The position numbers were made by a program, and so were the translations under genes. The notes below the pieces were generated by a model. It was not told the DNA's origin, ran no database searches, and worked only from the letters and a program-made list of their open reading frames with translations. Shown one piece after another: positions 8,128 through 31,034 of a stretch of DNA of 38,490 bases. The stretch comes from an uncultured Microcaldota archaeon (GTDB lineage: Archaea; Micrarchaeota; Micrarchaeia; Norongarragalinales; Norongarragalinaceae), in assembly GCA_903893865.1 (NCBI GenBank), contig CAITNU010000016.1, forward strand, positions 1-38,490, in the 5' to 3' direction. Within the stretch, counting starts at the first letter, position 1. Every line of letters begins with the position of its first letter.

Positions 8128-8818
8128 ATTCAGCGCGGATAAACTCGGCGGATTGAAACGAGGAGAACTCAACTTTTTCGACTTGCACGTTCACTCGAAA
8201 TACTCTTTCGATTCCTTGACTTCTCTCGATTCGATAGTCGGAAAAGCCGGGAAAATAGGCTTGCACGGTTTCGCTTTGACTGACCACGACTCTTTTGCCG
8301 GCGCGGAAAAAGCGGCCAAACTGGCGGAAGACGCTTGCCTGGTTTTCATTCCGGGAATGGAAATCGAAACCGAATGCGGCGACTTGATAGCCTTGTTCTT
8401 GAACGAACCAGTTGCGGCTCGCTCGTTCGCCAGCGCGGTCGACGAAGTCAAGGCGCAAGGCGGCGTCGCGGTCGTCGCGCATCCCTTCAAGCGAATCGGG
8501 AAAGAAAGCGATTTCAAGGCATCGATGCTTCCGCTTCCGAAAGGTGTGGGAGTTGAGGCCGCCAACGGCCGAATCAGCTTAGAGAAAAACGAGTTAGCGA
8601 TTAAAACCGCTTCCCGCTTCAATTTTTTCTTCACTGCCGGCAGCGACGCGCACTTTTCCTCTGAAATGGGCAGCGCCTTCCTTGCCTCGAAAGCGGGCGA
8701 CGCCGAAGAGCTTCGCAAGGCGATTGTAAATAAGCAGTGCGCGCCGGTTTGGGTTGGACGCAGGTACAATCCGCTGAGCAGGGGAATAAGACTAGCGAAG
8801 CGCATTACGCGCATCTGA
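8111..8818 (+). CDS. PHP domain metal-dependent phosphoesterase
   Basis: FFDLHVHSKYSFDS, GFALTDHDSFAGAEKA, FIPGMEIETE, VVAHPFKR, AGSDAHFSSEMG; GTG start overlapping the ATP-grasp 3' end by 17 bp. Confidence 0.9.
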   Translation: MNTLDEFSADKLGGLKRGELNFFDLHVHSKYSFDSLTSLDSIVGKAGKIGLHGFALTDHDSFAGAEKAAKLAEDACLVFIPGMEIETECGDLIALFLNEPVAARSFASAVDEVKAQGGVAVVAHPFKRIGKESDFKASMLPLPKGVGVEAANGRISLEKNELAIKTASRFNFFFTAGSDAHFSSEMGSAFLASKAGDAEELRKAIVNKQCAPVWVGRRYNPLSRGIRLAKRITRI

Positions 8819-8879
8819 TTCCGCAAATCCAATTAAGCGCGTCTGAGTCCGCGCATCTAATTCCGCACACCTGATTTTT
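8810..8879. repeat. 14-bp degenerate tandem repeat, 5 units, spanning the PHP stop codon
   Basis: cgcatctgattccg / caaatccaattaag / cgcgtctgagtccg / cgcatctaattccg / cacacctgattttt. Confidence 0.85.
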
Positions 8880-8906
8880 ACCGGCGTTGTTTTTGCGTTA
8901 TTCGCG

Positions 8907-10076
8907 CTATTTTACTGGTTCCAGCTTCGCTTCAGGCGTTATGACGCTTGCGATGTCGGCGTATTTTTCGCTCACGCGCTCGAGCACTCGCCTGTAAATC
9001 TTGATTCCTTCAGTCGAGCCAGAGTCTTTCTCGTCCGGGTGAGTCAGGAAATTGAAGACACCGTTGTTTGAAACGACGAAGTCGAGACGCGAAGCATAGT
9101 ATTCGAACATGCGTTGTTGGGTCGAACGGAAAATGGTGTAGAATGCGTAGTCCTGGTACGCCGTAACCGGATACTCGACGAAGGAATGGAAACCGCGGCG
9201 CTTGAAATTGAACGGCTTGAAAGGAATTATTTCTCCGCAGCCGCCGGGGCTCATGAACGGCGTGAAGTTCTCGAAAGACGGAACCGAGGAATCGTGCGCG
9301 ACGCCAGCTGCTTGCAGGCAATCGAACATTTCAGGCGAATAGTGCAGCCAAGGCGCGCGAAAGCCGCGGTTCACCGAGTTTTTCTTGATTTCCTCGCTGA
9401 GCGACGCGGGTGAGCGGTTAACTTCCTCAAGCAACAAACAGGAATGGTTTAGTCCGTGCATGAAACTGCGCTTGCGCAATTCGGGAAACTCGTCGAAAAA
9501 CGCGTTCTTGGCTTCGTTCACAACGTACCAGTTCGACTCCAGATCGAGAGACTCCTCGGCATCGAGCATTCTGCGGATTCCTTCAAAACCAAGCGCGTTG
9601 TCCACGTCGTGAGTCAATACTACCGCGGGCCGCGGGGGCTTCAAAACAATGCGCGGGCTGAAGAAATCGAAGAACTTCCTGCGAAGCTCAAACGCCTCGT
9701 CTCGGTGCGGAGGGATTTCCTTTTGCCGCCGCAAGAAATTTAGCCTTGACAAGTACCGCCTGACGCCGGCTCTCGTCAAAAAACAGAACGCGCCGTAGGT
9801 CGTGCTGAGCTTGCGCCGCGAATTCGCTTTCCGCAGGTAGCCTTCGAAGTCCACGCCCGCAGCGGCCGCTTCGCTCGCGAAAACGATTTCCCCGCTTCCG
9901 TGCTTCGCCTCGAAATCCTCGAATTTTTTTTCGGAGTCGCTGCAGACGACGTTCAAGTCGGCGTCTCCGTTGATTTCAGAGGAAATCCTGGTTTTTTGCC
10001 CGTAAACTTGAAACAGGGACGCAGCGCTTAACGCCTCGACGCTTTTTTCTTTTTCAGCGGAAACAATCGTTATCAC
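8907..10076 (-). CDS. Polysaccharide deacetylase-like (CE4/NodB fold) protein with N-terminal extension
   Basis: VVLTHDVDNALGF, FMHGLNHS (HxxxH), GFRAPWLHYS; N-terminal domain of about 130 aa of unknown function. Confidence 0.75.
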   Translation of the reverse strand: MITIVSAEKEKSVEALSAASLFQVYGQKTRISSEINGDADLNVVCSDSEKKFEDFEAKHGSGEIVFASEAAAAGVDFEGYLRKANSRRKLSTTYGAFCFLTRAGVRRYLSRLNFLRRQKEIPPHRDEAFELRRKFFDFFSPRIVLKPPRPAVVLTHDVDNALGFEGIRRMLDAEESLDLESNWYVVNEAKNAFFDEFPELRKRSFMHGLNHSCLLLEEVNRSPASLSEEIKKNSVNRGFRAPWLHYSPEMFDCLQAAGVAHDSSVPSFENFTPFMSPGGCGEIIPFKPFNFKRRGFHSFVEYPVTAYQDYAFYTIFRSTQQRMFEYYASRLDFVVSNNGVFNFLTHPDEKDSGSTEGIKIYRRVLERVSEKYADIASVITPEAKLEPVK

Positions 10077-10098
10077 GCCAACAACCCCCTAAATCCTG

Positions 10099-10118
10099 AA
10101 TTCGCGAGCTCGCGAATT
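10099..10118. promoter_or_regulatory. Perfect 20-bp palindrome AATTCGCGAGCTCGCGAATT
   Basis: Two perfect 10-bp arms, no spacer, intergenic, 22 bp upstream of the 10076 start on the minus strand. Confidence 0.65.
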
Positions 10119-10129
10119 GCCACCATTTC

Positions 10130-10180
10130 AATATTACTTCACAGTAATTTTTACTTCATCGTCATTTTTACTTCGCCGCC
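10130..10180. repeat. 17-bp tandem repeat, 3 units, spanning the stop codon of the minus-strand glycosyltransferase
   Basis: aatattacttcacagta / atttttacttcatcgtc / atttttacttcgccgcc. Confidence 0.8.
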
Positions 10181-11277
10181 AGTTCCACGTACTGCGAAGC
10201 TGCGCGCTCCCAAGAAAACTTTTCAGCTGTCTTGCGCGCGTTTTCCCCCAGTTTTTTAGCCAGCGTTTTGTTGTTCAACAATCGCCGTAAAGCCTCGCGA
10301 AGCGCTGCGGCGTTTTTCGGCGGCACTGCGAGCGCGTCGAAATTTTTCGTCACAGGCAAACCTATATCCGTAACAATGCAAGGCTTGCCCGCAGCCATCG
10401 CCTCGAGAAGCACGAGCGGTAGCCCTTCGGAAAGCGAGGGAAGCACAAAGACGTCCGCGATTGAGAGGAAGCGTTCCACGTCGCTCCTCCAGCCTACGAA
10501 CAATGCGTCAACGCCTTCTTTTCCGGAAAGCATTTCGAGTTCCTTCCTCAAAGGCCCGTCGCCCACTACGACGAGCGTTGCCTTGATTCCCTTCATCGCT
10601 TTTATCAAGTATTCGACGCCTTTCACTTCGAGCAACCTTCCCGCGAACAAAACTACCTTCTTGCGCCGCAGGCCGAGTTCGGCCCTGAGTTTCTCTCCAT
10701 CAGCAACTCTCGTTTTCTTTATTTTGACTCCCGTTGGTATCACCGAATAGTTTCTCGGGAGGAAACCCATTTTCGTTAAAAACTGTTTTTTTTCTTCCTC
10801 GGAAAAAAACACTACGCGCTTCGGCAGGCGGTAGACTACTGACTCCGTTAGGCGGAAGAACAAGCGCGAGAAAGCGTTGTACTGAGGTTGAACCCAGCAT
10901 ATTCCCGCGGGGCAGGCGATGACTTTCCTGCGCTTCAAAAAACCTAGAAGGCAAGCGAAGAAAATAGCCACGAAGCCTTGCGCCACTACCACGTCGAACT
11001 CCTCGCGCAGCGCGGCTAGGAAAGCGAAGAAATTCAGCGAAGGGTTGCGCAAGCCGCCGGCTACCCACCGCACTCTCACTACGCGCACGCCGCCGGCCTC
11101 CTCTTTTTTCGGCAATCCCTTGAAAGCGCGCGTGATTATCGTGACTTCGTGCCTTTTTTCTGCTAGGCTTTCCGCAAGCGCGGCTGCGTAAACCTCGAAT
11201 CCGCCAGGCGGCAGCTCGTCTTGCCCGCGGCTGGAGTGCACTGGGTATTCTTTCGAACCAAGAATCAAGAAGCGCAT
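10168..11277 (-). CDS. Glycosyltransferase family 4
   Basis: SSRGQDELPPGGFEVYAAALAESLAEKRHEVTIIT; RKKVVLFAGRLLEVKGVEYLIKAM; FVLPSLSEGLPLVLLEAMAAGKPCIVTDIG. Confidence 0.92.
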   Translation of the reverse strand: MRFLILGSKEYPVHSSRGQDELPPGGFEVYAAALAESLAEKRHEVTIITRAFKGLPKKEEAGGVRVVRVRWVAGGLRNPSLNFFAFLAALREEFDVVVAQGFVAIFFACLLGFLKRRKVIACPAGICWVQPQYNAFSRLFFRLTESVVYRLPKRVVFFSEEEKKQFLTKMGFLPRNYSVIPTGVKIKKTRVADGEKLRAELGLRRKKVVLFAGRLLEVKGVEYLIKAMKGIKATLVVVGDGPLRKELEMLSGKEGVDALFVGWRSDVERFLSIADVFVLPSLSEGLPLVLLEAMAAGKPCIVTDIGLPVTKNFDALAVPPKNAAALREALRRLLNNKTLAKKLGENARKTAEKFSWERAASQYVELAAK

Positions 11278-11300
11278 GGCGTGATATTAGCATTCGCGGT

Positions 11301-11310
11301 ATTTTAAATA
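11301..11310 (-). promoter_or_regulatory. Putative archaeal TATA box for the GT4 gene (minus-strand TATTTAAAAT)
   Basis: Centre about 29 nt upstream of the ATG at 11277, compatible with a leaderless transcript. Confidence 0.55.
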
Positions 11311-11378
11311 ACTGCGCGGCAGCGGCTTTAAAGCGGTTTGTCGAAAATGAAAACCGCCTTTGTCTGGATTTGGATGGA

Positions 11379-12791
11379 TTAGATTCGCAAGATTTTCCTT
11401 AAAACGCGTTTTATCACGTGCAGGTCGCTCTCGCGCAGCGATTCGGTGGCAAGCAGGAGGACGAGAGCGGGAGCCAGCAGCAGCACGCCGGCGACGCCGG
11501 AATAGTACGCCGCCGCGACGGCGAGAGGCGAAGCGTAGACGAATGTTTTGCTCTTGCGCGGGAGCTTCAAGTCGGACAAGTAAAACGCTACCACGCCCGC
11601 CGCGAGAGTCGCCGCACAGATTCCAAGCAACCCGAAGAACGGTATGAGCGCGAAATCAAGCGCGACGTTTATTCCAGCCGCTACCGCGATGCTCTTCAAG
11701 CCTTTCTCTGGTTTCAAGTGCGCAGTAATTTGGGTTATATACAGCATGTAAAGCGAGTAAAACAGCGTGCTGGCCGTGAGTATCGCGACGAATAATTCGG
11801 TTCCAACGTACTGCTTGAAGAATACGCGCATCAAGGGATGGATTAGCGCCGCGAGAGCCATGGCCGCCAGCAGGTTGAACGAGAACGCGATTCGCACGCT
11901 TCGAAGGAATACTGCTTCGCTTCTTTTTTCGCCGAGTTCCGCGCTCCGCGTGAGCAGGAACATGGATATGCTCATGGAAATCGCGGTCAATATTCCAGCT
12001 ATCGCGGAAGCGATGTTGTAGCGCGCCACGTTCTCGAAAGTCGAGAGAACGCCGAGGATGACGGAATCGCCTTTTCCGAGCACGTCGAACGAAAGCAGGA
12101 CGACGAGCAGGCCGAGCCCCTTCAGCCAGTAACTCTTGACGAACGAAAAATCTATTCGAGGCTTGCCGGCTATTCGCGCGATTTTTTCGCGAGTCATCCA
12201 AACGCTGGCTGCTGCCGACAGGAACGTAGCGGCGGCGAGCGCGTAAACTATGCCAACGTCGCCGAGTCCGCGCCAGTAAAAGACGAACGCGAGGTCAGAA
12301 AGAACGAAAAACATTTCCGTAAGCTGAAGCAAGTGGTACTTGTGTTCCGCGCGCAGGATGCACTTCGCCGGCAGAGCGAGCCACGAGAAAACGAAGCACA
12401 ATGCGAGAGGCCACACGAGCGAGTACTTCAATCCGACGAAGAGGGTTCCCAAGGCGAAAGCGAAGGTAACCGCGCCCGAGAAAAAGAACAGCGACGAAAC
12501 GTCTTTTTTCTTTATGTATGCTGGAACGAAAAGCGTGCCCAATCCTGGGAAAACGAATGCGGACGCGATGGTGTAAATCATTATCGCGAAGCTCGCCTGC
12601 CCGTAATCGCTGATGCTGAACAAGTTCGCGAACGCGACGAGGAGGAAGTAGGTGATTCCTTTGCTGGCGACGTTCAACGCGAAGTAATAAACGGTTTCCT
12701 TCTTGCCGACGGTTTCCTCACTGATTTTCCCGACTTTTTCCACCGCGTTTTCCGCTCGGTCCTTCTTATTCATGTTCGCACACTTTTTCAT
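11379..12791 (-). CDS. Wzx-type oligosaccharide flippase (polysaccharide biosynthesis/MOP superfamily)
   Basis: 470 aa, about 12-14 TM segments; KGITYFLLVAFANLFSISDYGQASFAIMIYTIAS; KPEKGLKSIAVAAGINVALDFALIPFFGLLGICAATL. Confidence 0.85.
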   Translation of the reverse strand: MKKCANMNKKDRAENAVEKVGKISEETVGKKETVYYFALNVASKGITYFLLVAFANLFSISDYGQASFAIMIYTIASAFVFPGLGTLFVPAYIKKKDVSSLFFFSGAVTFAFALGTLFVGLKYSLVWPLALCFVFSWLALPAKCILRAEHKYHLLQLTEMFFVLSDLAFVFYWRGLGDVGIVYALAAATFLSAAASVWMTREKIARIAGKPRIDFSFVKSYWLKGLGLLVVLLSFDVLGKGDSVILGVLSTFENVARYNIASAIAGILTAISMSISMFLLTRSAELGEKRSEAVFLRSVRIAFSFNLLAAMALAALIHPLMRVFFKQYVGTELFVAILTASTLFYSLYMLYITQITAHLKPEKGLKSIAVAAGINVALDFALIPFFGLLGICAATLAAGVVAFYLSDLKLPRKSKTFVYASPLAVAAAYYSGVAGVLLLAPALVLLLATESLRESDLHVIKRVLRKILRI

Positions 12792-12995
12792 TGTTGCTAG
12801 AGCGTTACCGACTCTGGCGCCGCATAACGCCGCTAATGTTCTTAAGACACTACTTTTAAATGCCTGGTTTTTAAAAACTATCCCGACGAATTAAACCGGG
12901 CAGAAAGCGGCTAAAGCAGCAAAAGAGGCGAAAGCAAAGAAAGCAGCGAAAGCGGCGAAGGCACTTGAAAACGTGTTACGGTTTGTTTTAGCGGG

Positions 12996-13065
12996 ATTTG
13001 CTTAATGGAAAGAGATTGCTTAACAGAATTGTTTAACGGAATTGCTTAACAGGATTGCTTGAAGG
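12996..13065. repeat. 13-bp degenerate tandem repeat (4 contiguous units 13014-13065 plus an outlying unit 12996-13008)
   Basis: atttgcttaatgg ... gattgcttaacag / aattgtttaacgg / aattgcttaacag / gattgcttgaagg. Confidence 0.85.
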
Positions 13066-13078
13066 GGTTGAAACGGTC

Positions 13079-14344
13079 TTGAAGATTTGCGTCGTTGGTT
13101 TGGGATACATAGGTTTGCCTGCGGCGTGCCTGTTCGCGGACGCCGGCGAGCGAGTAGTCGGAATCGACGCTTCGAGCGAGCGAGTGGCGCTCGTCAACGA
13201 AGGCAAACAGCCGTTTCCCGAGCCAGGCCTCGAACAAATTCTTTCGCGCAACGTTTCAGCGAAGCGATTGCGCGCCTCAACGGACTACAAGGAATGCAAA
13301 GACGCCGATGCAGTGCTGCTCTGCCTGCCGACGCCGATTACCGACAAGAAAATGGATTCGTCGTTCCTGCGCGCGGCGTGCGCCTCACTCGCGCCTCGCT
13401 TGCGCGCCGGCTGCCTCGTGGTGCTCGAATCGACCGTTTCGCCCGGAACGACGCGCGGCTTCGTGCGCGAATTGCTCGAACGCGGCAGCGGTCTCAAGGC
13501 GGGAAAAGACTTTTTCCTCGCGCACTGCCCTGAGCGCGCGATTCCCGGGAACACGTTGCGCGAAATGCGGGAGAACGAGCGCGTCGTCGGCGGAATAAAC
13601 GCGGAGAGCGCTGCGAGAGCGAAAAAACTCTACTCGTTGATTTGCAAGGGCGAAATCGCTGAAACGAATTGCACGACTTCGGAATTCGTCAAGCTCGCGG
13701 AAAACATTTACCGCGACGTCAACATCGCGCTCGCGAACGATTTCGCTCTCGCCGCGGAGCGGCTCGGCGTAAGCGTTTTCGATGTCGTGCGCCTCGCGAA
13801 CAAGCATCCGCGCGTGCATTTGCACGCTCCCGGAGCCGGCGTGGGCGGGCACTGCATTCCCTTGGACTCGTGGTTTCTCATGGAAGCGTACGGCGACTCG
13901 CGCTTGCTGCCTTTGTGCAGGCAAATAAACGATTCAATGCCGCTGCACGCGGCGCGCCTGCTGAAGCAAGCGCTTGGCGGCGGTTCGCTGAAGGGAAAGA
14001 AAATCGTTTTGCTCGGCGTTTCGTTCAAACCGGAAATAGACGACCAGCGCGCTACTCCCGCCGAGCCGCTCGCCCTCGCCTTGAAAAAAGAGGGCGCGGC
14101 AGTCGTCGCGGTCGACCCGTTCGTGAAAAAATGCGTTTTCGCCGAGCTCGCGCCGCTTGACGCCGCAGCGGAAGGCGCGGACGCGGTTGCGATCGTCACG
14201 GCTCATTCGGCGTTTCAGAAAATCAAGTGGAGCGACGTGAGAAAGAAAATGCGCGGAAACGTAATCGTCGACGGCAGGGGCGTGCTGAAGAAAGCGCCTG
14301 AAGGATTTGTTCTGCGCGGCGTAGGAAGAGGCGACTTGAATTGA
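13079..14344 (+). CDS. wecC: Nucleotide-sugar dehydrogenase, UDP-N-acetyl-D-mannosamine dehydrogenase-like (WecC/WbpA family)
   Basis: KICVVGLGYIGLPAACLFADAGERVVGID; CLPTPITD; LESTVSPGTTR; CPERAIPG; EFVKLAENIYRDVNIALANDFA; GVGGHCIPLD; GVSFKPEIDDQRATPA. ORF track starts at 13055; TTG at 13079 gives the canonical N-terminus. Confidence 0.9.
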   Translation: MKICVVGLGYIGLPAACLFADAGERVVGIDASSERVALVNEGKQPFPEPGLEQILSRNVSAKRLRASTDYKECKDADAVLLCLPTPITDKKMDSSFLRAACASLAPRLRAGCLVVLESTVSPGTTRGFVRELLERGSGLKAGKDFFLAHCPERAIPGNTLREMRENERVVGGINAESAARAKKLYSLICKGEIAETNCTTSEFVKLAENIYRDVNIALANDFALAAERLGVSVFDVVRLANKHPRVHLHAPGAGVGGHCIPLDSWFLMEAYGDSRLLPLCRQINDSMPLHAARLLKQALGGGSLKGKKIVLLGVSFKPEIDDQRATPAEPLALALKKEGAAVVAVDPFVKKCVFAELAPLDAAAEGADAVAIVTAHSAFQKIKWSDVRKKMRGNVIVDGRGVLKKAPEGFVLRGVGRGDLN

Positions 14345-15636
14345 GTAAACGCAGTCTACGCGGTTTAAGAGTTTTAAGCGTCGTGTCGACGCGGCCAGAA
14401 CTAATTAAAATGGCGCCAGTGCTGAAAGAATTCGAGCGCCGCGGCATCGAAAGCGTTTTCGTCACTACGGGACAACACTACGACCGCGAACTCTTCGAGG
14501 AATTCGTCTGCGAACTCGGACTCCGGCCGCCGGACGAGAACCTCGCCGTAGGCTCCGGAAGCCAGGCGTTTCAAACCGGCGAATCACTAAAGCGACTTGA
14601 AGCGGTTTTTCAAAAACACGAGCCGAGCGTCGTTCTCGCGGAAGGAGACACGAATTCCATTCTCGCAGCCGCGCTGGCTGCTCAGAAACTCCTCGTTCCG
14701 TTCGGGCACGTGGAAGCCGGGCTGCGCAGTTTCGACCGCCGCATGCCTGAAGAAATCAATCGCGTCGTGGCAGACCACTGCGCCGAACTGCTTTTCGCTC
14801 CCACCAAGCTTTCCGCGCTGCAGTTGCTGCTCGAGAAAATCCCGAAGCACAAGGTTTTCGTTACGGGCAACACGGTCGTCGACGCTTGCCTGCAGAATCT
14901 GCCGCTCGCGAGAAAGAAATCCGTAATTCGCCGCAGCCTCCCGAAAAAATATTTTTTGCTCACGGTGCACCGCAAAGAAAACACGGACTCGCCAACTCGG
15001 CTCAAGCAAATCTTCGCAGCCGCGGCGAGGCTCGAAGCGCCAGTCGCGTTCCCGTTGCACCCGCGCACGAAAGCGTTCATAGGCAAGTACGGAGTCAAGA
15101 TGGAAAACATCGTCGTGCTTCCGCCGCTCGGTTACTTCGATTTTCTCGCGCTAGAGGAAGGAGCGGCCGCCGTGCTGACGGATTCAGGCGGGGTGCAGGA
15201 GGAGTGCGCGGTGCTCGGAAAGCGGTGCGTCGTGCTGCGCGAAAACACCGAGCGCCCTGAAGCGCTCGGGCCCAACTGCGTTCTCGCGGGCGCGGACTCG
15301 CGCAAAATCGTTGCGGAAGCGCGCAAGCGCGCCGTGCGCGCGCCTTGCCCGTTCGGCGACGGCAAAGCGGCGCGGCGAATCGTTTCAATTCTCGAGCGCG
15401 GTTTCGAACGCCGCTCTCTCGCAGTCGAGTCCTCGTCGTTCGTGGGCGCGGGCTCGCATTATCCTGAATTCGAATTGGTTTCCGCCGCGAAGCACGCGGG
15501 CAAAACAATTGCGGCGTTTGAGCGTTGCGAAAAATGCGAGGCAAACGTGCTTTTCGAAGGCGCGCGCGGCGCAGCGCGTTATCCGAATCCAGAACGTGTG
15601 CTGAAAAAAACCGATTTCCTGCTGGTGAAACGTTGA
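14341..15636 (+). CDS. wecB: UDP-N-acetylglucosamine 2-epimerase (non-hydrolysing, WecB family) with C-terminal extension
   Basis: VVSTRPELIKMAPVLKEF; VFVTTGQHYDRELFEEF; GHVEAGLRSFDRRMPEEINR; LLTVHRKENTDS; LTDSGGVQEE; VLRENTERPEAL; TTG start overlapping the upstream stop (TTGA). Confidence 0.93.
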   Translation: MSKRSLRGLRVLSVVSTRPELIKMAPVLKEFERRGIESVFVTTGQHYDRELFEEFVCELGLRPPDENLAVGSGSQAFQTGESLKRLEAVFQKHEPSVVLAEGDTNSILAAALAAQKLLVPFGHVEAGLRSFDRRMPEEINRVVADHCAELLFAPTKLSALQLLLEKIPKHKVFVTGNTVVDACLQNLPLARKKSVIRRSLPKKYFLLTVHRKENTDSPTRLKQIFAAAARLEAPVAFPLHPRTKAFIGKYGVKMENIVVLPPLGYFDFLALEEGAAAVLTDSGGVQEECAVLGKRCVVLRENTERPEALGPNCVLAGADSRKIVAEARKRAVRAPCPFGDGKAARRIVSILERGFERRSLAVESSSFVGAGSHYPEFELVSAAKHAGKTIAAFERCEKCEANVLFEGARGAARYPNPERVLKKTDFLLVKR

Positions 15637-16358
15637 AAACGCTGAAGACGCGCGAATGCGGGCACTCCGAGCAAGAAGCGGCGGCGTGGGCGAAAACGAG
15701 TTTCAAAACGCAGCCGACGGTTGACGCAGTTAAACAATTGATTCGCGCGGAAAAAAACAAGCGAAGCAGGCGAAGTAGAGGAAAAGCGGTTGACCTCGGC
15801 TGCGGCGCCGGAAAGTTCCTGCCCGACCTGTCCGCCTCTTTCGTTGAAGTCGTCGGAGTTGACTTGTCGGACGCGGCGCTGTCGCTCGCGCGAAAACAAC
15901 GCGTTAAAAATTCGAGGCTCAAGCTAATCAAAGCCGATTATTTCGACACGCGTTTGCCGCCCGCTTATTTCGATTTCGCTCTCGCCGTAGGCCCGTCGAT
16001 AATGGGAACGAGCGATTACCCCAAGGGCTTGCGCGAACTGGCGCGCTTGCTGAAGCCGGGCGGCCGCGCTCTGCTTGAAATAAAAAATCCGTTGCACGCG
16101 AGTTACTGGCTTCCAGTGCCTTGGCACAACTTCCGCGAAAAAAAGAAGTGCGCAATTTGGCCGTGGCAGGCGCGCAGCGCTTTAGAGCGCGGCGGCTTCG
16201 TAGTCGAGCGCATTGAAACCGTGAACTACGTTCCTCCGGCGTGCCCACGATTCGCCGCACGATTTTTTTACTGGTTGGGCGGCGCGCTTCGCGGCTTTCC
16301 GTTTTTGGGTTGGTTCGGCCGGTCCACGCTGGCAGTCGCAAGAAAACCGCCAAAATGA
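15633..16358 (+). CDS. Class I SAM-dependent methyltransferase
   Basis: KAVDLGCGAGKFLPDLSASFVEVVGVDLSDAALSLARK; KPGGRALLEIKNP; start placed at TTG 15633 (TTGA overlap) rather than the track start 15525. Confidence 0.85.
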   Translation: MKTLKTRECGHSEQEAAAWAKTSFKTQPTVDAVKQLIRAEKNKRSRRSRGKAVDLGCGAGKFLPDLSASFVEVVGVDLSDAALSLARKQRVKNSRLKLIKADYFDTRLPPAYFDFALAVGPSIMGTSDYPKGLRELARLLKPGGRALLEIKNPLHASYWLPVPWHNFREKKKCAIWPWQARSALERGGFVVERIETVNYVPPACPRFAARFFYWLGGALRGFPFLGWFGRSTLAVARKPPK

Positions 16359-16389
16359 CGCTTCGCAACGCTTCGAATTTATTTTGTTA

Positions 16390-16411
16390 GGAGCCTTAGG
16401 CTCCGTTTTTT
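16390..16411 (+). terminator. Stem-loop plus T-tract between convergent genes
   Basis: GGAGCC-TTA-GGCTCC-G-TTTTTT; 6-bp perfect stem, 3-nt loop; overlaps the stop codon of the minus-strand GT at 16396. Confidence 0.55.
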
Positions 16412-17514: not shown

Positions 17515-17535
17515 GTTTGTAATTACTCGGAATAG

Positions 17536-17543
17536 TTAAATAA
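17536..17543. promoter_or_regulatory. Single TATA-like element TTAAATAA shared by divergent genes at 17514(-) and 17566(+)
   Basis: Centre about 25 nt from the minus ATG and about 27 nt from the plus ATG; no other TATA-like motif in the 51-bp spacer. Confidence 0.5.
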
Positions 17544-17565
17544 TCAGCTTGGTTGAAGTCTCTCC

Positions 17566-18726
17566 ATGAACACAAGGGAATCGCAGGAAACGCAGCAAAT
17601 GCAGCAAACGCTGGTTCGCACCGCTTTTGCTGGGCTGGCAAAGCTTTGGGACGAGGAGCGCGGCGGATTCAAAGACGCGCTGCGCGAATCCGGCGAGGGA
17701 TTAAGCGTTGTCGAGTCGAAAAAACTGAATTACAACTGCGCTTGCCTCATTGCGCTGCTCGACTATCTGCGCGATTCGAAGCGCGCTGGCGAAGCAGAGC
17801 GCTACTGCAGAGCGCAAGCGCGTTACCTGCTTTCGCGCTTCGAGAAAACCGGTTTTCCCGTTCCATCTTTTGAAAACGCAACGCAGCGAGACGCTACCGT
17901 AGGCGAGCAAGGATTGCTGTTGTGGGCATTGTCGAAATCACTGGCTGCGGGCGTGGCGCCGAAAAACGCCGCACGACGCGCGTGCGAGGAACTCGCGGAA
18001 AAAATCGCTCGTGCAATCGATGAACGCGACGGAGTCCCGCAAACGCTCGGTTCGCGTTATTTCGTTCCAATGGACAACGCTTTCTGCTTGCGCGGCTTGA
18101 TTGAAAGCGAGCGCGCGGGAGTAAGCGGGAAAGGAGAAACCGCTGCCGACGCCATCGCCAGCGCGCTAATCGATGATGCCGCAACGCCGCCAGTTTTTCG
18201 GGTCACCAAAAACCGCGAGACGACGAACCGAATTTCTTTCAATAATCTCGTTTATCCGTTGTATTCGCTTTCCGACTACGCGTCGACGCGAAAAAATGCT
18301 GGCGCGCGTGCGCGCGAAACAGTCGCAGCGTGCGCGGAAGCGCTTGCCGCCGAGCAAGGGCCGCTGGGGCAGTGGTGGTGGACTTACGACCGTTTCGGCG
18401 GCATCGCCATGCGTTACCCCGTATACGGCGTTCACCAAGACGGAATGGCGCCCATGGCGCTCAAGCGCGCGAGTGCAGCGCTGGGCTCGCCAACGCGGTT
18501 CGATGCCGCGATTGAAAAGAGTTTGCGCTGGGTTTTCGGCGAAAACGAGTTGCGTGCGCGCCTAGTCGACGAAGAACGCGGAGTCGTATGGCGCAGCATA
18601 CGCTGTCCATGGCTCGTGCAAAAACTGCGGCAAGTAACAGGTTTCACTCCAGAAGTTTTTCTGCGCGTGAAGAAGGAGTGCCGCTCGTACCATTTGGCGT
18701 GGATTCTGCACGCGGCGAAATGCTGA
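17566..18726 (+). CDS. Hypothetical protein, probable (alpha/alpha) toroid fold, of the type found in exopolysaccharide clusters
   Basis: Helical repeats; conserved-looking GPLGQWWWTYDRFGGIAMRYPVYGVHQDGMAPMAL. Confidence 0.65.
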   Translation: MNTRESQETQQMQQTLVRTAFAGLAKLWDEERGGFKDALRESGEGLSVVESKKLNYNCACLIALLDYLRDSKRAGEAERYCRAQARYLLSRFEKTGFPVPSFENATQRDATVGEQGLLLWALSKSLAAGVAPKNAARRACEELAEKIARAIDERDGVPQTLGSRYFVPMDNAFCLRGLIESERAGVSGKGETAADAIASALIDDAATPPVFRVTKNRETTNRISFNNLVYPLYSLSDYASTRKNAGARARETVAACAEALAAEQGPLGQWWWTYDRFGGIAMRYPVYGVHQDGMAPMALKRASAALGSPTRFDAAIEKSLRWVFGENELRARLVDEERGVVWRSIRCPWLVQKLRQVTGFTPEVFLRVKKECRSYHLAWILHAAKC

Positions 18727-21211: not shown

Positions 21212-23158
21212 TTGTGCGGAATATGCGGGTTCAACTGGATTGACGCAGACATCCTAAAAAAAATGGTGAGTTCGCTTGAGCACAGGGGGCCTGATGCAAG
21301 CGGTAAATTCGTTGACGGCGACGCTGCAGGCGGCGGAATCTCGCTCGGGCACACCCGCCTGAAAATAATCGACTTGAGCGAAAAGGCGGCGCAACCAATG
21401 ACGAACGAGGACGGTTCACTGCAGATAGTTTTCAACGGCGAAATCTACAATTTCCGGGCGCTCCGAGCTTCGCTCGAGGCGAACGGGCATCGGTTCAAAA
21501 GCAGTACCGACACGGAAGTCATCGTTCACGCTTACGAGGAATATGGCACCGCTTGCGTTGCGCGCTTCGAAGGAATGTTTTCCTTCGTGCTGTGGGATTC
21601 CGACAAAAAAATCTTTTTCGGGGCGCGCGACCACGCGGGAATCAAACCGTTGTATTATTATTTCGATGATTATTTTGATGGCGGCAGCTACGAACGCAAA
21701 CGCGACCGCGGAAAATTCGTTTTCGCGAGCGAGATCAAGGCGATTCTGCAGTGCGACGCGGTCAAGCGGGAAGTCGACGAAGGCGCGCTTTCCTCGCTCG
21801 TCGACAACCTCTTCGTTACCGGCAACCGAACCCTGTTCAAAGGCGTGCGCGAACTCCCTCCCAGCAGTGTGTTCGTCTTCGACGCGAAAAACAAATCCCT
21901 AAAAATTTCTCGTTATTGGCATCCGGAGCTGCGCGTTCAGCAATTGCTTTCGCTCGAAGCCGCCTCACGCGTTCTAGAATCGTCGCTCGCGAAGTCGGTC
22001 GAAAGCACGCTCGTAAGCGACGTCCCGCTCGGCGTCGCGCTTTCGGGAGGACTCGACTCGAGCACCGTCGCAGCGCTTGCGGCGAAAGCGGACGCGAAAC
22101 TCAAGACGTTCACCGTGGGCTTCGGAGTCGAGACGGACGAATTCGCTTTCGCGCGGAAAGTCGCGGAACACATCGGCTCCGACCACGAGGAGCTCCACGT
22201 CGAGCTCGGCGGGCTAAGCGAAAACATTCCCGAAATCGTTTGGCACTTGGAATCCCCGCCAACGCGGACGGCCGTCGCGCCGACGTTCCTGCTGGCGAGA
22301 AAAATCAAGAAGAGGGTTACGGTCGAGCTTCTCGGCGAGGGAGGCGACGAATTGTTCGGAGGCTACGAACGCTACAAACAGTTCGAAAAAATTCCGTTTA
22401 AAGGAAACGAAGCTCGCCTCCAAGAAACTTTCTTCAAGCGCGGAAGCAAAAACGATTACTTTACGCTGACTGAAAGCTCGAGAAGCCCAGTAGACGAAGC
22501 GGCTGAGATTCAGACGGAAACTAAAACTAAAACGAAAACGAAATCTGAAACGGAATCTAAAACGAAAAACTACCCTGCCGGTGAGAGCGTCAACTGCGCG
22601 CTGCTCTACGATTTCAATAACCAGCTGCCGGGCGTTCAACTAAACCGCGTTGACAAAATGACTATGGCGAGTTCCGTAGAGGCGCGCGTGCCCTTCCTTA
22701 ACAAGTCGGTTATCGAAACCGCGTTCGAAATCCCGTCCGCGCTGAAAATCAGTGGCGGAAACGTGAAATTCGTCTTGAAACACGTCGCTGCGCGCCACCT
22801 CCCAAAGGAAATAATTTCTAGAAAAAAAGTCGGGATGCAAACGCCGCTTGACGAGTGGTTCAAGTCCGAGTTCGTCGGCGTGGCCGAATGCGTCCTCGAT
22901 GAAAAAAACATCCGCGGAATAACGTACCTGAAGTCAGGCGGAGTCAAGCGCCTAATCGAAAAAAACAAGCTGTTGCGAAGCGCAGCGGCGCCTTTCGGCA
23001 GGCTCGGCGGAAGCGCGGGACGCGGCGCGCGCAGACTAGAGAATTATTATTCGGGCAGGTTGTGGTTTCTTTCAATGCTCGCGGTGTGGCACAAGCTTTA
23101 TGTCGAGCCTAATATTCTCCAGAAACCCGGAAACCGCTCTCTCAAAAGCTTGTTTTAG
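21212..23158 (+). CDS. asnB: Asparagine synthase, glutamine-hydrolysing (AsnB family)
   Basis: TTG-TGC-GGA start gives M-CGICGF with catalytic Cys2; SLEHRGPDASG; SLGHTRLKIIDLSEKAAQPM; IVFNGEIYNF; GVALSGGLDSSTVAAL; GEGGDELFGGYERY; KMTMASSVEARVPFLNK. Confidence 0.95.
   Translation: MCGICGFNWIDADILKKMVSSLEHRGPDASGKFVDGDAAGGGISLGHTRLKIIDLSEKAAQPMTNEDGSLQIVFNGEIYNFRALRASLEANGHRFKSSTDTEVIVHAYEEYGTACVARFEGMFSFVLWDSDKKIFFGARDHAGIKPLYYYFDDYFDGGSYERKRDRGKFVFASEIKAILQCDAVKREVDEGALSSLVDNLFVTGNRTLFKGVRELPPSSVFVFDAKNKSLKISRYWHPELRVQQLLSLEAASRVLESSLAKSVESTLVSDVPLGVALSGGLDSSTVAALAAKADAKLKTFTVGFGVETDEFAFARKVAEHIGSDHEELHVELGGLSENIPEIVWHLESPPTRTAVAPTFLLARKIKKRVTVELLGEGGDELFGGYERYKQFEKIPFKGNEARLQETFFKRGSKNDYFTLTESSRSPVDEAAEIQTETKTKTKTKSETESKTKNYPAGESVNCALLYDFNNQLPGVQLNRVDKMTMASSVEARVPFLNKSVIETAFEIPSALKISGGNVKFVLKHVAARHLPKEIISRKKVGMQTPLDEWFKSEFVGVAECVLDEKNIRGITYLKSGGVKRLIEKNKLLRSAAAPFGRLGGSAGRGARRLENYYSGRLWFLSMLAVWHKLYVEPNILQKPGNRSLKSLF
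22511..22570 (+). repeat. 6-bp simple-sequence tract inside asnB encoding QTETKTKTKTKSETESKTKN
   Basis: cagacggaaactaaaactaaaacgaaaacgaaatctgaaacggaatctaaaacgaaaaac. Confidence 0.85.
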
Positions 23159-23181
23159 TTCGGTTGCGCAATTTTTTAAGT

Positions 23182-23958
23182 TCAGTCGCGCGTTTTGTGG
23201 TACTTAAAAACGCGTCCCACCCAAACAACGTTAGCCCAAACCGCCATTATCACGAGCACCGCGAAGTGCAGCGAAAGCAGCGCGCCGAGGGCAAACAAAA
23301 GCACTTGCACGCCGTGACTGAAGCTTCTCGCAATCGAAAACAACGTGATTCGCTGAGGCGCCATAGGCTTTTTGTTAGCCGCAGTCGCGCGCCTAGCGGC
23401 TTCGGCTTTTGCTTTTGCTTTAGCGTAAACTAATTCGCCGTACTGGTAACTTAATTTCGCGGTAAAGAAGCCTACCTCGGCTAGAAAGCCCACGACGTAA
23501 CCGATTTGGCCCAGCGCGGACGCAGCCCGCAGGCTGAACGCGAAAATCAGCAATCCAGTAGAAACATTGTCCGTCACTCCGTCGAACCACTTGCCGAAAT
23601 CGCTTTTCATTCCCTTCAGCCGCGCGAGTTCCCCGTCCGCGCAGTCGAGAATGATGTATAATTGTATTAGCAATGCGGCGGCGACGGCGCCTGCCAGCGA
23701 GTGCGAGAAAACTACCAACAGGGAGGCTGTGACTGCTGACAAAAGCGCTGCGAGCGTTACCTGGTTGGGCGTCACGCGCGTGTTCGCGAGGCGCGTCGAA
23801 ATCTGCCGCGAGAACGGACGAACGATTATTATGTTGACTGGATCGCTGTTGGGCTTGAGGAGCTTGGCCGACGGGTTTTCCTCGCTTTCGTTTGGTTTAC
23901 TCGATTTACTCAATTGCAACACCTTCAATTTTTTTTCCGCCTCAAAAAATCGTGTCAT
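23182..23958 (-). CDS. CDP-alcohol phosphatidyltransferase family membrane protein
   Basis: DCADGELARLKGMKSDFGKWFDGVTD matches DG(x)2AR(x)8G(x)3D(x)3D; TRVTPNQVTLAALL preceding. Confidence 0.9.
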   Translation of the reverse strand: MTRFFEAEKKLKVLQLSKSSKPNESEENPSAKLLKPNSDPVNIIIVRPFSRQISTRLANTRVTPNQVTLAALLSAVTASLLVVFSHSLAGAVAAALLIQLYIILDCADGELARLKGMKSDFGKWFDGVTDNVSTGLLIFAFSLRAASALGQIGYVVGFLAEVGFFTAKLSYQYGELVYAKAKAKAEAARRATAANKKPMAPQRITLFSIARSFSHGVQVLLFALGALLSLHFAVLVIMAVWANVVWVGRVFKYHKTRD

Positions 23959-25130: not shown

Positions 25131-25138
25131 TTGCTCGA

Positions 25139-26623
25139 TTAGTCGTTTTTTGTTCGAAGCTTGAACACGTAATAGCAGTCGTTCTCGAATATTTTCTTCG
25201 CCGAACCCATATTCAAAGCTTTCGCATTCTCCGCACCGCACTTTTTTTTCGACGCGACAAGCAACTGCACTCCGAATTCGCTTGCCGCGCGCTTCGCGAG
25301 GCGAGGCACGTCCTTCGTTTCAGGTGCGATGACGAAGAAGGGGTATTTGCGCCACATGGTCGGCGAACCGCTCCCGAGGATTCTCTTGCCTGTAAACCAA
25401 GCGATCATCGAGCTCGCGCCGCTCAAGCACCAGATTTTTTTTTCGCGGCGACCGCGCAGGAATTCGATGCACTCAAGCAGCGAGTCGTCGCGCGCAAGTC
25501 CCTCCGCCTGTTTCATCTTGTCCCAAACTTTCTTGGTCGCAACGCCGGTCAAAGCAAACGCGGCTAGCGCAGCAGCCTGTACCCAAAAACCGTTGCTGAC
25601 TATGAACAAAGCGGCTGCGGGAAAAGACGCTAGAAACGAGTATTGAAGATAGCGGTGGTTTTCGCCCAGGAACGCGAACGGCTTCAGCGCCGTGAGAACG
25701 AAGAACGCGACGCTCGCGGCCAGCACGGTGCGCAACAAAGCGAATTCAGGCGTGAGCGCAGCCGCCGCTGGCGCCGTAACGTAGGGCGTCGTAACGTAAA
25801 AAGCCGCTGCGAAAAACACCCACGGATTGAAAACTATTTTCGCGAGCGAAAAGGCGAGCCAGCCCGCGAAGCCTAGGGTGCGGCGTTTCGAAATGTTGCG
25901 CCTCCAGAAATCGAGTATCGCCACGTGCGACTTCAAGATTTTGAAGTAAAAACCCCCGCTCGCGACTGCGGCGAGAACGAAGCCGCCAGCCAGAACGAGC
26001 GCATACGCCGCACTCCATTCGGCAAGGGACAGAATGACGAGTGAGAAGAAGGAAAACTGCGCAGCCATCTTGTGCCCCAAGAGGATTAACGCGAAAAGAA
26101 CTGCCGCAGCCAAGTAAAACCACGGGTTGTGCAACGCGGCGAGAAGGCAAAACAACAAAAACGAGTAAAGCAAAGCCGAAAACGGGCGCGCAGTAAGAGT
26201 GAAGGAGTCGCTGACCGCCGCAGCGGTGAAGACGAAGAAAGAGCCGGCGAGCAAGCTCGCTGCAACGTTTTGAGTCAGCCAAAACGTCGCGGCGATTACG
26301 AGCAGCGCATGCACCGCGTCGAGCGCGGGAGAAACGAAGCGCACTCGGGATGCGACGTTTTTTTCAGGCAGGAGCGCGAGCAAGTAGTGAAAAAGCGGCG
26401 GGTAATCGAAGGGTTCTTCGAGAACGCGCGTCTTCATATGTTCAGGCAGCTTCCAATTGTTTTCCTTTATTTCCTTCGTGTCCAAGAGAAAACCCCAAGT
26501 GTCGTTGCCGAAGAACGCGTGCTTGCGGCGCGGCCAAAGCCTAGCGAAGAAAATTGCGATTACGATTGCGGCTGCGCCCGCAGTCAGCTGTAAAAACGCT
26601 TGTTGAGTGACGCCGGAAAACAT
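25139..26623 (-). CDS. Polytopic membrane protein, probable GT-C type glycosyltransferase
   Basis: About 10 TM segments; FFGNDTWGFLLDTKEIKENNWKLPEHMKTRVLEEPFDYPPLFHYLLALL near the N-terminus, resembling the acidic first loop of GT-C enzymes. Confidence 0.6.
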   Translation of the reverse strand: MFSGVTQQAFLQLTAGAAAIVIAIFFARLWPRRKHAFFGNDTWGFLLDTKEIKENNWKLPEHMKTRVLEEPFDYPPLFHYLLALLPEKNVASRVRFVSPALDAVHALLVIAATFWLTQNVAASLLAGSFFVFTAAAVSDSFTLTARPFSALLYSFLLFCLLAALHNPWFYLAAAVLFALILLGHKMAAQFSFFSLVILSLAEWSAAYALVLAGGFVLAAVASGGFYFKILKSHVAILDFWRRNISKRRTLGFAGWLAFSLAKIVFNPWVFFAAAFYVTTPYVTAPAAAALTPEFALLRTVLAASVAFFVLTALKPFAFLGENHRYLQYSFLASFPAAALFIVSNGFWVQAAALAAFALTGVATKKVWDKMKQAEGLARDDSLLECIEFLRGRREKKIWCLSGASSMIAWFTGKRILGSGSPTMWRKYPFFVIAPETKDVPRLAKRAASEFGVQLLVASKKKCGAENAKALNMGSAKKIFENDCYYVFKLRTKND

Positions 26624-26626
26624 AGC

Positions 26627-26653
26627 ATTTAATTCTCAGTGGGATTATAAAAA
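26627..26653. promoter_or_regulatory. Crossed divergent TATA-like elements in a 36-bp intergenic region
   Basis: TTTAATT centre about 29 nt before ATG 26660(+); minus-strand TTTTTTATAA centre about 25 nt before ATG 26623(-). Confidence 0.5.
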
Positions 26654-26659
26654 AGCGTC

Positions 26660-27961
26660 ATGTGCGCCTTCAACGACTCAGTGCTTGAAGCCGCGCGCGA
26701 GTTTCACGGGCGCGCGCGCCTTCCGCTGCCGCGAGCCGAAGGCCCCGTCGTCGAAGTAGCTCACCAACCGCTTTTCCTTCCTTCGCCTGGTTTCTTCGAG
26801 AAAATCGCTTTCGGGTGCTGGCTCGCGCAACGCCGCGGCGGCGTTTGCGCGTTCGGGTTTGTAGACGACGATTACGCGTTATTCCCGTCAATGTGGAGCG
26901 CGCGCTTGCCTGCGCGCAACAAGAACGGTTACGAGAAAATCGGTTTCGCCGTCGAGCCCCAGCGCAAATCTTTCTTCGTGTTGCCGAAGCCGAGCCTCGA
27001 GGAAGCGAACGCCGCCGCTGAAAAAACCGGTTTCGGTTTTTTGGTTGATTGCTGGAATAAAAGCGATTCGCTTTCCGACTTCAACGCCTTGACCGCCGCT
27101 AAAATCTGCGGTTTGCTGGGATTGAACGCGTTGTTTTTCGAGTACTCGCGTCTGCCTTCGGCAGCGCTCGATAAACAATTAACGTTCTTCGATGAACACC
27201 AACGCGAATTCGTTTCGGCGTTCAATGCCTCGCTGCGCAAGCGAAGGCTCGCCGGCGCCAAACCGATGGCTGAAAACGAGCTGCCGTTGTGGCGCGTGGA
27301 GCGAGATGGCACGAAAAAACAATTGCTGGTTGGAGAGAAGGCGGCGCAAGGCGAGCGCATCGCATTCAAGGCGGTGGCGCGCAACATCGCGTTCGCTTCG
27401 CTTCTCGGCTCGGGAGTTTACGTGTCGGGCGGCGGAGCGTTGTCGGAAGAACGCGGTTACGCGGGCGTAGCGCACGACGTTGCACAAGCACTCGGCGCAG
27501 TCGAACCGGAAACCGTTGTTTGGCGGAACAAGGACGTTTACCGTTCAAGCGAAGCTAGGGAAACTAGGGACTTGAACGGCCTCGAAAAGCAGGTGAGCGA
27601 ACTCAAGGCGTTGCTGCGCGCGGCAAAGGAAAAAGAGTCGGCGTTCCTTGCGGAAACGCGCGGAAGCGAAAGCGAAAACAAAAGCAAAAACGCGGGACTG
27701 GAAGCAGACTTCGAGACGCGGCGACAAACGTTGTTCGAAGAAAAAAAGAGGGCGGAACGCGAGTTCCAGAAAAAGCAGGTAAAATTCCTGGAAGTTAAGC
27801 GCGCGGCAAAAACCGAGAACTCGATTTTTTCCATTGCGGATTTGTTGAGAGTCGTAGACGCAGGACGCGTAAAGCGCGAGTGGTTTGCTTCGCTTGATGC
27901 GGCGAAGCCTGCGCGCAAAGAGTTTTACTTGGAATACGCGACTATGACGCGGTTCTTTTGA
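26660..27961 (+). CDS. Hypothetical protein; possible remote BshC-like (cysteine-adding enzyme-like) architecture with C-terminal coiled coil
   Basis: VVEVAHQPLFLPSPGFFEKIAFGCWLAQRRGGVCAFGFVDDDYALFP resembles the BshC TGQQ.GL...K...A....DHD pattern; C-terminal LEKQVSELKALLRAAKEKESAFLAE...EEKKRAEREFQKKQVKFLEVKR coiled coil. Confidence 0.4.
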   Translation: MCAFNDSVLEAAREFHGRARLPLPRAEGPVVEVAHQPLFLPSPGFFEKIAFGCWLAQRRGGVCAFGFVDDDYALFPSMWSARLPARNKNGYEKIGFAVEPQRKSFFVLPKPSLEEANAAAEKTGFGFLVDCWNKSDSLSDFNALTAAKICGLLGLNALFFEYSRLPSAALDKQLTFFDEHQREFVSAFNASLRKRRLAGAKPMAENELPLWRVERDGTKKQLLVGEKAAQGERIAFKAVARNIAFASLLGSGVYVSGGGALSEERGYAGVAHDVAQALGAVEPETVVWRNKDVYRSSEARETRDLNGLEKQVSELKALLRAAKEKESAFLAETRGSESENKSKNAGLEADFETRRQTLFEEKKRAEREFQKKQVKFLEVKRAAKTENSIFSIADLLRVVDAGRVKREWFASLDAAKPARKEFYLEYATMTRFF

Positions 27962-28017
27962 CTCGCACGCGCTTTCAACTTTCTGAATTTTCTGCTTGCC
28001 GTAAACCTGCGACTTTG

Positions 28018-28848
28018 CTACAACCAGCAGTGCATCGAGTACTGCGCGAAAAGCGGCGCCAAGCCCGCGCTATGGTACAACCGCGTGGCGGGGTTCTGCG
28101 TCTGCGTTCCAACCAGCACGAAACTCGTTTTGCCGTGGAACCAGGACAATGCGCCTTCGACCAGCCGTCGCCCGATTCCCTTGCGCGGCGTTTTGACTGC
28201 AATCAAGTCTATTCGCCCGAAGTGAAGGAACGAGTCGAACCCGCACGTCACGAATCCCTCAACTCCGCCGCTGGTGCGTTGTCCGCGTTCCCCGCGTTCG
28301 ACGAGCACGGTTTTTTTGTGCAGGCAGTCCGCAGCCCACTCCGCGAACAAGGAGTCGCTCTTAGTCTTCGGGAAGCGCGAATCCGCGTGAAAGTGGTCGA
28401 ACTGAAATGCGTTTGCTGCAATCGAGCGTATGCCGCGCTCGTCCGCCTGCGACGCCGCCCCGATTTTCGCCGCCTCGTTTGCCGTCTCCTCGAACTCAGC
28501 ACCATCGCGCGGCGCTCCTCCGAAAGTTGCGAGGCAATCCATTACTCTGAAACCAGCTTTCTCAAGCAACGCAGTTAGGCTAGCGTCGGACGCCGGCGGC
28601 CTAGCGAAAACGCATTTTGCCCCGTTCTTTTTCAGCCACTCCAACGCCGTATTCAAGTCTTTGGCGTTGGCGCGTGAATCCAAGTAGTCAATCGAGCCGA
28701 CGCCGACTCCGAAGTGCTTCGAATCCCACTCCCGCATTCGCGAGAAAAGCGTTCCGTTCGCGTGCAGTTTCGCGCACTCTTTTTTCAGGAACGCGGAAAC
28801 CAGTGCCGGCTTGGCTCCCGGGACGCGATAATACGCGGAGTCGATCAC
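28018..28848 (-). CDS. GNAT N-acetyltransferase, WecD/RffC-like
   Basis: REWDSKHFGVGVGSIDYL; LEWLKKNGAKCVFARPPASDASLTALLEKAGFRVMDCLATF; IDLIAVKTPRKGIGRRLVEGALSWF; GTQTQNPATRLYHSAGL; GTGA overlap with the upstream aminotransferase stop. Confidence 0.82.
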   Translation of the reverse strand: MIDSAYYRVPGAKPALVSAFLKKECAKLHANGTLFSRMREWDSKHFGVGVGSIDYLDSRANAKDLNTALEWLKKNGAKCVFARPPASDASLTALLEKAGFRVMDCLATFGGAPRDGAEFEETANEAAKIGAASQADERGIRSIAANAFQFDHFHADSRFPKTKSDSLFAEWAADCLHKKTVLVERGERGQRTSGGVEGFVTCGFDSFLHFGRIDLIAVKTPRKGIGRRLVEGALSWFHGKTSFVLVGTQTQNPATRLYHSAGLAPLFAQYSMHCWL

Positions 28849-30002
28849 GCGCGCCGCCTCTTAACGCGTTTAATCGCGCCAACGACTTTGCGCACCCCTG
28901 CTTCTCCAAGCGTTGGGTAGAGCGGTAGCGACGCCACGCGGTCGTAGACGCGTTCTGCAACCGGGAAGTCGCCGCGCCTGTAGCCGTACTTTTTCGCGTA
29001 GAACGGCTGTAAGTGCAATGGAATGAAGTGCACGCTGCACGCGACGCCTTCGGCCGCCATTTCCTCCACGAATCTTCCGCGCTCCATGAATTCCACGAGA
29101 ACTGGATACAAGTGCCACACGCGCTCGACGTTTTTGCGTTCGACGGGCAGCGTGAACCCGCCTACGTCGCCGAGCAGCTCCGAGTAAAGCGCCGCGAGGC
29201 GCGCGCGCTCTCGATTGAATTGGCGGAGTCTTTCTAGTTGCACGAGTCCGAGCGCCGCCTGCACGTCCGTCATGTTGCACTTGAACCCGGCTTCAGTCAA
29301 ATCGTAGTACCAAGAACCTTTCTTGTCGTAGCGTTTGAGCGCGTCCTTGCTTAATCCGTGCAGGCGCAGGCGTTTCGCGCGCTCAGCGAGAGCGCCGTCG
29401 GCGCACGTGAGCATCCCGCCTTCACCAGTAGTCATGTTTTTCGTCGCGTAGAAACTGAAGGCGGCGGCGTCGCCGAGAATGCCGACGTTTTTGTTCTCGT
29501 ACTTCGCGCCTACCGCGTGAGCGGCGTCCTCGAGCACGAAGAGTCCGTCGCGCTTCGCGAACGCGTTTACAGCGTTCATATCGCACGGGTGTCCCGCGTA
29601 GTGCACCGGAATCACGGCGCGAGTTTTTTCGGAAACTGCTTCCTTCGCCAGCGCGGCGTCGATGTTGAAAGTGTCTTCCTCTATGTCGCAGAACATGGGC
29701 TTCGCCCCAACGTGTTCTACTACGTTTGCTGTCGAAGCGAACGTGAAAGGAGTCGTGATTACTTCTTCGCCTCTTCCAATGTTCTTCGCCGCTAGCGCGA
29801 TGTGCAGCGCCGCCGTGCAGGAACTCAATGCCACCGCGTGATTTGCGCCGACGTACCTGCGGAATTTTTCTTCGAACTCCGCGGTGCGCGGCCCGGTAGT
29901 GAGCCAGCCCGAACGCAGTACTCTCGCGACTGCCGCCAGTTCCCTTTTTCCTATGGATGCCCTGCAGAATGGTATGTATTGCTTCAAAGCTTTCAACCCC
30001 AC
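28845..30002 (-). CDS. DegT/DnrJ/EryC1/StrS-type PLP sugar aminotransferase (2)
   Basis: IPFCRASIGKRELAAVARVLRSGWLTTGPRTAEFEEKF; LSSCTAALHIALAA; VLEDAAHAVGAKYENKNVGILGDAAAFSFYATKNMTTGEGGML. Confidence 0.93.
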   Translation of the reverse strand: MGLKALKQYIPFCRASIGKRELAAVARVLRSGWLTTGPRTAEFEEKFRRYVGANHAVALSSCTAALHIALAAKNIGRGEEVITTPFTFASTANVVEHVGAKPMFCDIEEDTFNIDAALAKEAVSEKTRAVIPVHYAGHPCDMNAVNAFAKRDGLFVLEDAAHAVGAKYENKNVGILGDAAAFSFYATKNMTTGEGGMLTCADGALAERAKRLRLHGLSKDALKRYDKKGSWYYDLTEAGFKCNMTDVQAALGLVQLERLRQFNRERARLAALYSELLGDVGGFTLPVERKNVERVWHLYPVLVEFMERGRFVEEMAAEGVACSVHFIPLHLQPFYAKKYGYRRGDFPVAERVYDRVASLPLYPTLGEAGVRKVVGAIKRVKRRRA

Positions 30003-30970
30003 GGAACGTAGTTGTTGTACTTCCGCGACGACGGATCTGGGAACGCGCCTGCCTCTAGCGCCGCCTTCGTCTCGAGTATGCCGTCGGCGAGCCCTTTCGT
30101 CTTCTTAAAACCTAATGCCTTCTCGAATTTCACGAACGACACGCGGTACGAGCGCTGGTCCTTCGTTTCGTTGAGGTATTCGACCTGCGTGCCCGGAACG
30201 TTTTCAGCGATGAGTTCGCCGAGCCGCTTCAAGCGATAATTCTCGTTCGTGAAACCCACGTTGTACGTCTGGAACGCGACTTTGTCTATGGGCGCGTCGA
30301 GAACGTTCAGAAACGCGCCGACTATGTCGTTCACGTGCACGAACGGCCTCCAGCAAGCGCCGTTGAATATCTTGATTTTCTTTTGCGCGAGCGCCTTCCA
30401 AGTCAAGTAGTTGACGACTAAGTCAAAGCGCATGCGCGGCGACAATCCGTAAAGCGTGCCGAGCCGCAGTATCGTCGGCGAGAATCCTCCTGTGTCGAAA
30501 GCTAGCAGCACCTTCTCGCAGTCAATCTTGGTTTCCGCGTAAAGCGAAACCGGATTGAGCGGCGATGTCTCCGTTATTTCGGAGTCGCCTTCGCTCGCGC
30601 CGTAGACGCTGCAAGTGGACGCGAAAACGAAGCGCTCAATCTTTTTTTCACGGCACAAGCGCGAAAGCCGCAGCGTTGAAATCAGATTCGTTTCAGTCGC
30701 GGTGTCGGGCTCGGCTGCGCAGGCGGGGTCGCCGACTATGGAGGCTAAGTGCACAACCGCGTCGACTTTTTCAAGCGAGCGCGTTATGTCCGCGTAATTC
30801 ATGATGTCGCCTGCCTGCAACTCGAAGTGCTTGTTTCCAACGAGGTTTTTTACGGGCTCGACGCCGAACATCAGCTTGTCCACTACCAGCACGTCGTGGC
30901 CGGCTTCGAGAAGGCGCCGCGAAAGAATCGAGCCTATGTACCCTGCGCCGCCTGTAACTAGAACGCGCAT
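29993..30970 (-). CDS. NAD-dependent epimerase/dehydratase (extended SDR)
   Basis: MRVLVTGGAGYIGSILSRRLLEAGHDVLVVDKL; FASTCSVYGASEG; YAETK catalytic motif. Confidence 0.92.
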   Translation of the reverse strand: MRVLVTGGAGYIGSILSRRLLEAGHDVLVVDKLMFGVEPVKNLVGNKHFELQAGDIMNYADITRSLEKVDAVVHLASIVGDPACAAEPDTATETNLISTLRLSRLCREKKIERFVFASTCSVYGASEGDSEITETSPLNPVSLYAETKIDCEKVLLAFDTGGFSPTILRLGTLYGLSPRMRFDLVVNYLTWKALAQKKIKIFNGACWRPFVHVNDIVGAFLNVLDAPIDKVAFQTYNVGFTNENYRLKRLGELIAENVPGTQVEYLNETKDQRSYRVSFVKFEKALGFKKTKGLADGILETKAALEAGAFPDPSSRKYNNYVPWG

Positions 30971-30978
30971 GCGAAGAC

Positions 30979-31034
30979 ACCTTTCAGGAAATACTTTTCA
31001 AGAAACGCTTTCCAATAAACACTTTCCAAGAAAT
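30979..31034. repeat. 14-bp degenerate tandem repeat, 4 units, upstream of the minus-strand SDR gene
   Basis: acctttcaggaaat / acttttcaagaaac / gctttccaataaac / actttccaagaaat. Confidence 0.85.

Follow-up and report, generated by a model that had tools for sequence, protein, structure and literature searches.

The window, a 38,490-nt stretch that makes up an entire contig of a 1.0-Mb, 102-contig, 78% complete archaeal genome, probably that of a small DPANN-type archaeon, mainly holds glycan synthesis genes, including one for archaeal AglB/STT3, and it carries a series of short tandem arrays that we located by combining TRF with a self-lag segment scan (Table 1). A first-pass annotation had listed six of these; five were recovered at or near the positions it gave, the 22-bp pair at 23152 proved marginal, and four others had been missed. 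That annotation placed the arrays at gene edges, and several do cross or adjoin an edge, but 6754–6782 lies at least 82 bp from a gene and 12904–12962 about 92 bp from a start. In the array over the PHP-domain gene stop, the stop triplet reads TGA/CAA/TGA/TAA/TGA across consecutive units, and in the array at the glycosyltransferase 3′ end GAAGTAA occurs in every unit; the period of both is frame-shifting. The asparagine synthase gene contains an internal Lys-rich repeat of 6/12/18 bp (22514–22568, TRF).

Table 1. Short tandem arrays in the window, with the method that detected each and whether the first-pass annotation listed it.
Position	Unit and copies	Identity	Context	Detection	First-pass annotation
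6685–6715	8 bp × 3.9, T-rich, low complexity		mid-spacer	TRF + self-lag scan	not listed
6754–6782	9 bp × 3 (TCTTACAGT)	90%	mid-spacer, 82 bp from nearer gene	TRF + self-lag scan	listed
8795–8876	14 bp × about 5, degenerate	63%	spanning PHP-domain gene stop (TGA, 8816–8818)	TRF + self-lag scan	listed
10134–10184	17 bp × 3	79%	spanning 3′ end of glycosyltransferase gene (minus strand)	TRF + self-lag scan	listed
12904–12962	9 bp × 6.6 (AAAGCAGCG, Lys/Ala-like codons)		mid-spacer, ~92 bp from nearest start	TRF + self-lag scan	not listed
13015–13070	13 bp × 4.3	79%	immediately 5′ of UDP-glucose dehydrogenase start (TTG, about 13079)	TRF + self-lag scan	listed
14344–14381	9 bp, in-frame		N-terminal extension of epimerase gene	self-lag scan	not listed
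17577–17611	9 bp × 3.9, in-frame		N-terminus of unknown gene	TRF + self-lag scan	not listed
23150–23196	22 bp × 2, marginal		between convergent gene ends	self-lag scan (score 13); not reported by TRF	listed
30979–31033	14 bp × 4	80%	upstream of epimerase gene 29993–30970 (minus)	TRF + self-lag scan	listed

We extended the scan to 364 kb of unmasked stretches from the same genome, which contain 267 spacers (38.7 kb, median length 85 bp), with gene starts taken from a simple caller that may be some codons off. At a score of at least 14, the spacers hold 40 arrays vs about 1.4–1.5 in dinucleotide shuffles, and 16 vs about 0.05 once a complexity filter has dropped low-complexity arrays; shuffling in 50-nt blocks, which preserves local composition, yields 3.8 unfiltered and 0.25 filtered. 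T-rich low complexity accounts for part of the unfiltered excess. Within the window, 1.9 kb of spacer carries nine arrays at a score of at least 12 (0.1 in dinucleotide shuffles), a higher density than in the remaining genome sample (50 in 36.8 kb). Identity between units is mostly 0.70–0.90 and almost no array is perfect. Excess matching extends over nearly all lags from 8 to 25 with no single period, which rules out a helical-phase or histone-type periodicity. The arrays share no common sequence beyond chance, with a shared 9-mer in six array pairs vs 6–16 in shuffles, so that the earlier view of them as differing in sequence and forming no dispersed family holds and a shared dispersed repeat is ruled out.

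Arrays inside genes are filtered by reading frame, 74 of 79 having a period that is a multiple of three. When the range of lags is widened (n = 90) they cluster at C-termini, where 19 fall in the last 60 nt vs 5.9 expected; the first 60 nt contain 9 vs 5.9 expected. The genome has a 16S gene fitting the archaeal model, and in this gene (L103, G000:C47) we noted a ~72-nt AT-rich insertion at about 931–1002, containing a 15-bp tandem pair at 93%, without which several relatives align. Separately, 16S matches split across several kilobases in G006, G013, G017 and others suggest that rRNA genes in this order contain introns or large insertions.

For comparison, we ran the gene caller and the scan unchanged on stretches from 19 genomes of the same order, on 19 stretches from the same class and on 50 kb of E. 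coli; the total sampled per relative ranged from about 4 to 213 kb, so zeros from the smaller samples are weak when taken alone. Filtered spacer arrays number 16 in 38.7 kb here vs 3 in 159 kb of the pooled others (22-fold, P about 2e-9), those with a period that is not a multiple of three 11 vs 1, and spacer arrays reported by TRF 53 vs 41 (5.3-fold), while arrays in genes are 2.9-fold denser by the TRF measure. In homologous genes of the comparison genome G007, an array was present at none of the four syntenic gene edges compared; none lies upstream of its STT3 homologue or its UDP-glucose dehydrogenase orthologue, the array in the epimerase N-terminal extension is missing from the G007 orthologue, and the segment translated here as ESQETQQMQQT (17577–17611) has a G007 orthologue without the repeat. 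A small sample of G006 hinted at the same trait, which a larger sample did not confirm. The excess of short tandem arrays is real, strong and, within the sample, lineage-specific. The local duplication process proposed in the first-pass annotation is supported by arrays that are private, mutually unrelated, without a preferred unit length and far above both shuffles and relatives.

The same annotation had suggested that this process acts at gene ends, or that selection favors duplicated stop or initiation signals, and these parts fared less well. Edge crossing does not exceed uniform placement within the same spacers, either for filtered arrays at score 14 (5 vs 4.3 expected) or for all arrays at score 12 (21 vs 24.6 expected). 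Among filtered arrays at score 14, 12 of 17 lie within 15 bp of an edge vs 6.7 expected, a count that includes the window that prompted the test; leaving the window out gives 8 of 13 vs 4.4 expected (P 0.035, uncorrected). Outside the window, closeness to edges is at the null for looser scores or a 5-bp cut-off, so any edge enrichment there is weak and threshold-dependent, appearing only at the combination of score 14 and 15 bp (P 0.02–0.035, uncorrected). Because spacers are short, most arrays lie near an edge anyway, and a gene-edge or signal-duplication reading is not supported beyond that shortness. As for the signals themselves, stop triplets do recur in the units, mostly at frame-shifting periods: arrays over a called stop codon have such a period in 11 of 12 cases, which puts the following stop copy out of the gene’s frame. 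The 16S 3′ end reads GATCACCTCCA, and in three 5′ arrays (30979, where the motif reads AAGGTG, L048:13531 and L023:2443) the Shine-Dalgarno match AGGTG is restricted to the gene-proximal unit; the array at L044:2427 retains GGAGA in both units. Duplicated stop and initiation signals are not maintained.

We consider it probable (roughly 0.7) that the arrays are private tandem duplications left by a genome-wide error process, with a net rate raised in this lineage and with protein constraint as the filter. A general replication error of slippage or microhomology type would tandemly duplicate 6–25-bp units throughout the genome; selection would purge nearly all frame-breaking arrays, so that spacers keep any unit length and genes keep multiples of three, with survival in genes favored in weakly constrained C-terminal tails. 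The copies would later diverge by substitution. A duplication over a stop or start may be tolerated because one working copy remains, and nearness to such sites would be mostly a by-product of short spacers. We infer slippage as the mechanism, and a raised birth of arrays over a slower loss. Several observations count against this explanation: perfect arrays are all but missing, whereas slippage still under way would be expected to leave some fresh identical copies; the window has a higher array density than the remaining genome, which a uniform process fails to explain; and T-rich low complexity contributes to the unfiltered excess.

In an alternative explanation, duplication proceeds at an ordinary rate and small insertions in spacers are removed less efficiently in this lineage, through relaxed selection or a weak deletion bias, so that old arrays accumulate. 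Most copies are indeed degenerate and look old, and the spacer excess (5- to 22-fold) exceeds that in genes; but in-frame arrays in genes are also raised, and a coding density of 0.87 sits inside the relatives’ range of 0.82–0.96. We regard slower removal as rather unlikely. Much less probable is that stop or initiation signals duplicated at gene ends are kept by selection: stop triplets repeat in several arrays and several arrays adjoin starts, yet edges are crossed as often as under random placement, closeness to them is weak outside the window, stop copies are mostly out of frame and distal copies have lost the Shine-Dalgarno match in three arrays. We would give equally little credence to artefacts of composition or assembly, which a 102-contig metagenome-assembled genome with some T-rich arrays might invite, as shuffles, including those in 50-nt blocks, fail to produce the arrays, and genes are almost free of frame-breaking arrays whereas random assembly error would ignore frame.

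Turning to what might raise the rate of private duplication, the genome encodes FEN1, NucS/EndoMS, RNase HII, PolB and the small subunit of PolD, which rules out loss of any of the first four as the cause; when FEN1 was aligned with that of one relative and inspected by eye, its acidic residues looked intact. All relatives searched lack MutS, as does this genome, so its absence does not set this genome apart; no DinB (IMS) was found here or in two same-order genomes searched. In DP1, the proofreading subunit of PolD (L023, about 130–150, minus strand), the genome has GESHKTSC where relatives have GHVHKNGY, at a site only some 130–150 nt away from a contig end. In Pyrococcus DP1 both GHxH histidines serve as metal ligands (PMC4996933, PMC10721889). 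The GHxH comparison covers the ten of 19 relatives in which a DNA pattern built on the motif and its context found a match; the pattern did not match this genome, and two of the nine unmatched relatives gave no DP1 match. The remaining ligand motifs (DLH, GDCCD, GNHD and YHG) are retained here, and Glu can still bind metal. This property, together with the finding that an exonuclease-deficient PolD showed slippage similar to that of the wild-type enzyme in one in vitro assay (PMC4134008), leaves the DP1 change as a lead. It seems improbable that PolD has a lost or altered DP1 proofreading site (first His of GHxH to Glu, and other changes following) and that the genome would record the duplications and substitutions arising from this. 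Pyrococcus abyssi PolB and PolD do slip between short direct repeats in vitro (PMC4134008), but that assay follows hairpin-assisted deletion rather than duplication.

Among known repeats, the arrays resemble prokaryotic minisatellites, which are rare in most species, abundant in few and often unique in sequence (PMC6749651). Like these they consist of head-to-tail copies with units of about 6–25 bp or more, each array with its own sequence, and in genes with periods that are mostly multiples of three; unlike these they are short, degenerate and densest in spacers, and of the 16 spacer arrays left after filtering, 11 have a period not divisible by three. Their identity falls mostly below the 90% expected of copies in typing databases. 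The TAACTGA direct repeats of marine Beggiatoaceae are likewise short and located in spacers, many just 5′ of start codons, but they are a single heptamer used genome-wide and mostly pointing towards starts (PMC4679880), whereas each array here has its own sequence; as a direct-repeat family with one unit at many loci would not, the arrays share 9-mers no more than shuffles do.

A lineage with about 20 times its relatives’ short spacer duplications is a natural case for comparison when asking how small archaeal genomes stay clear of them, and its genes show that gene-end tails and N-terminal extensions can lengthen through in-frame duplication. If the DP1 change is real and functional, it would tie the proofreading site of a replicative polymerase to genome-wide repeat load in nature.
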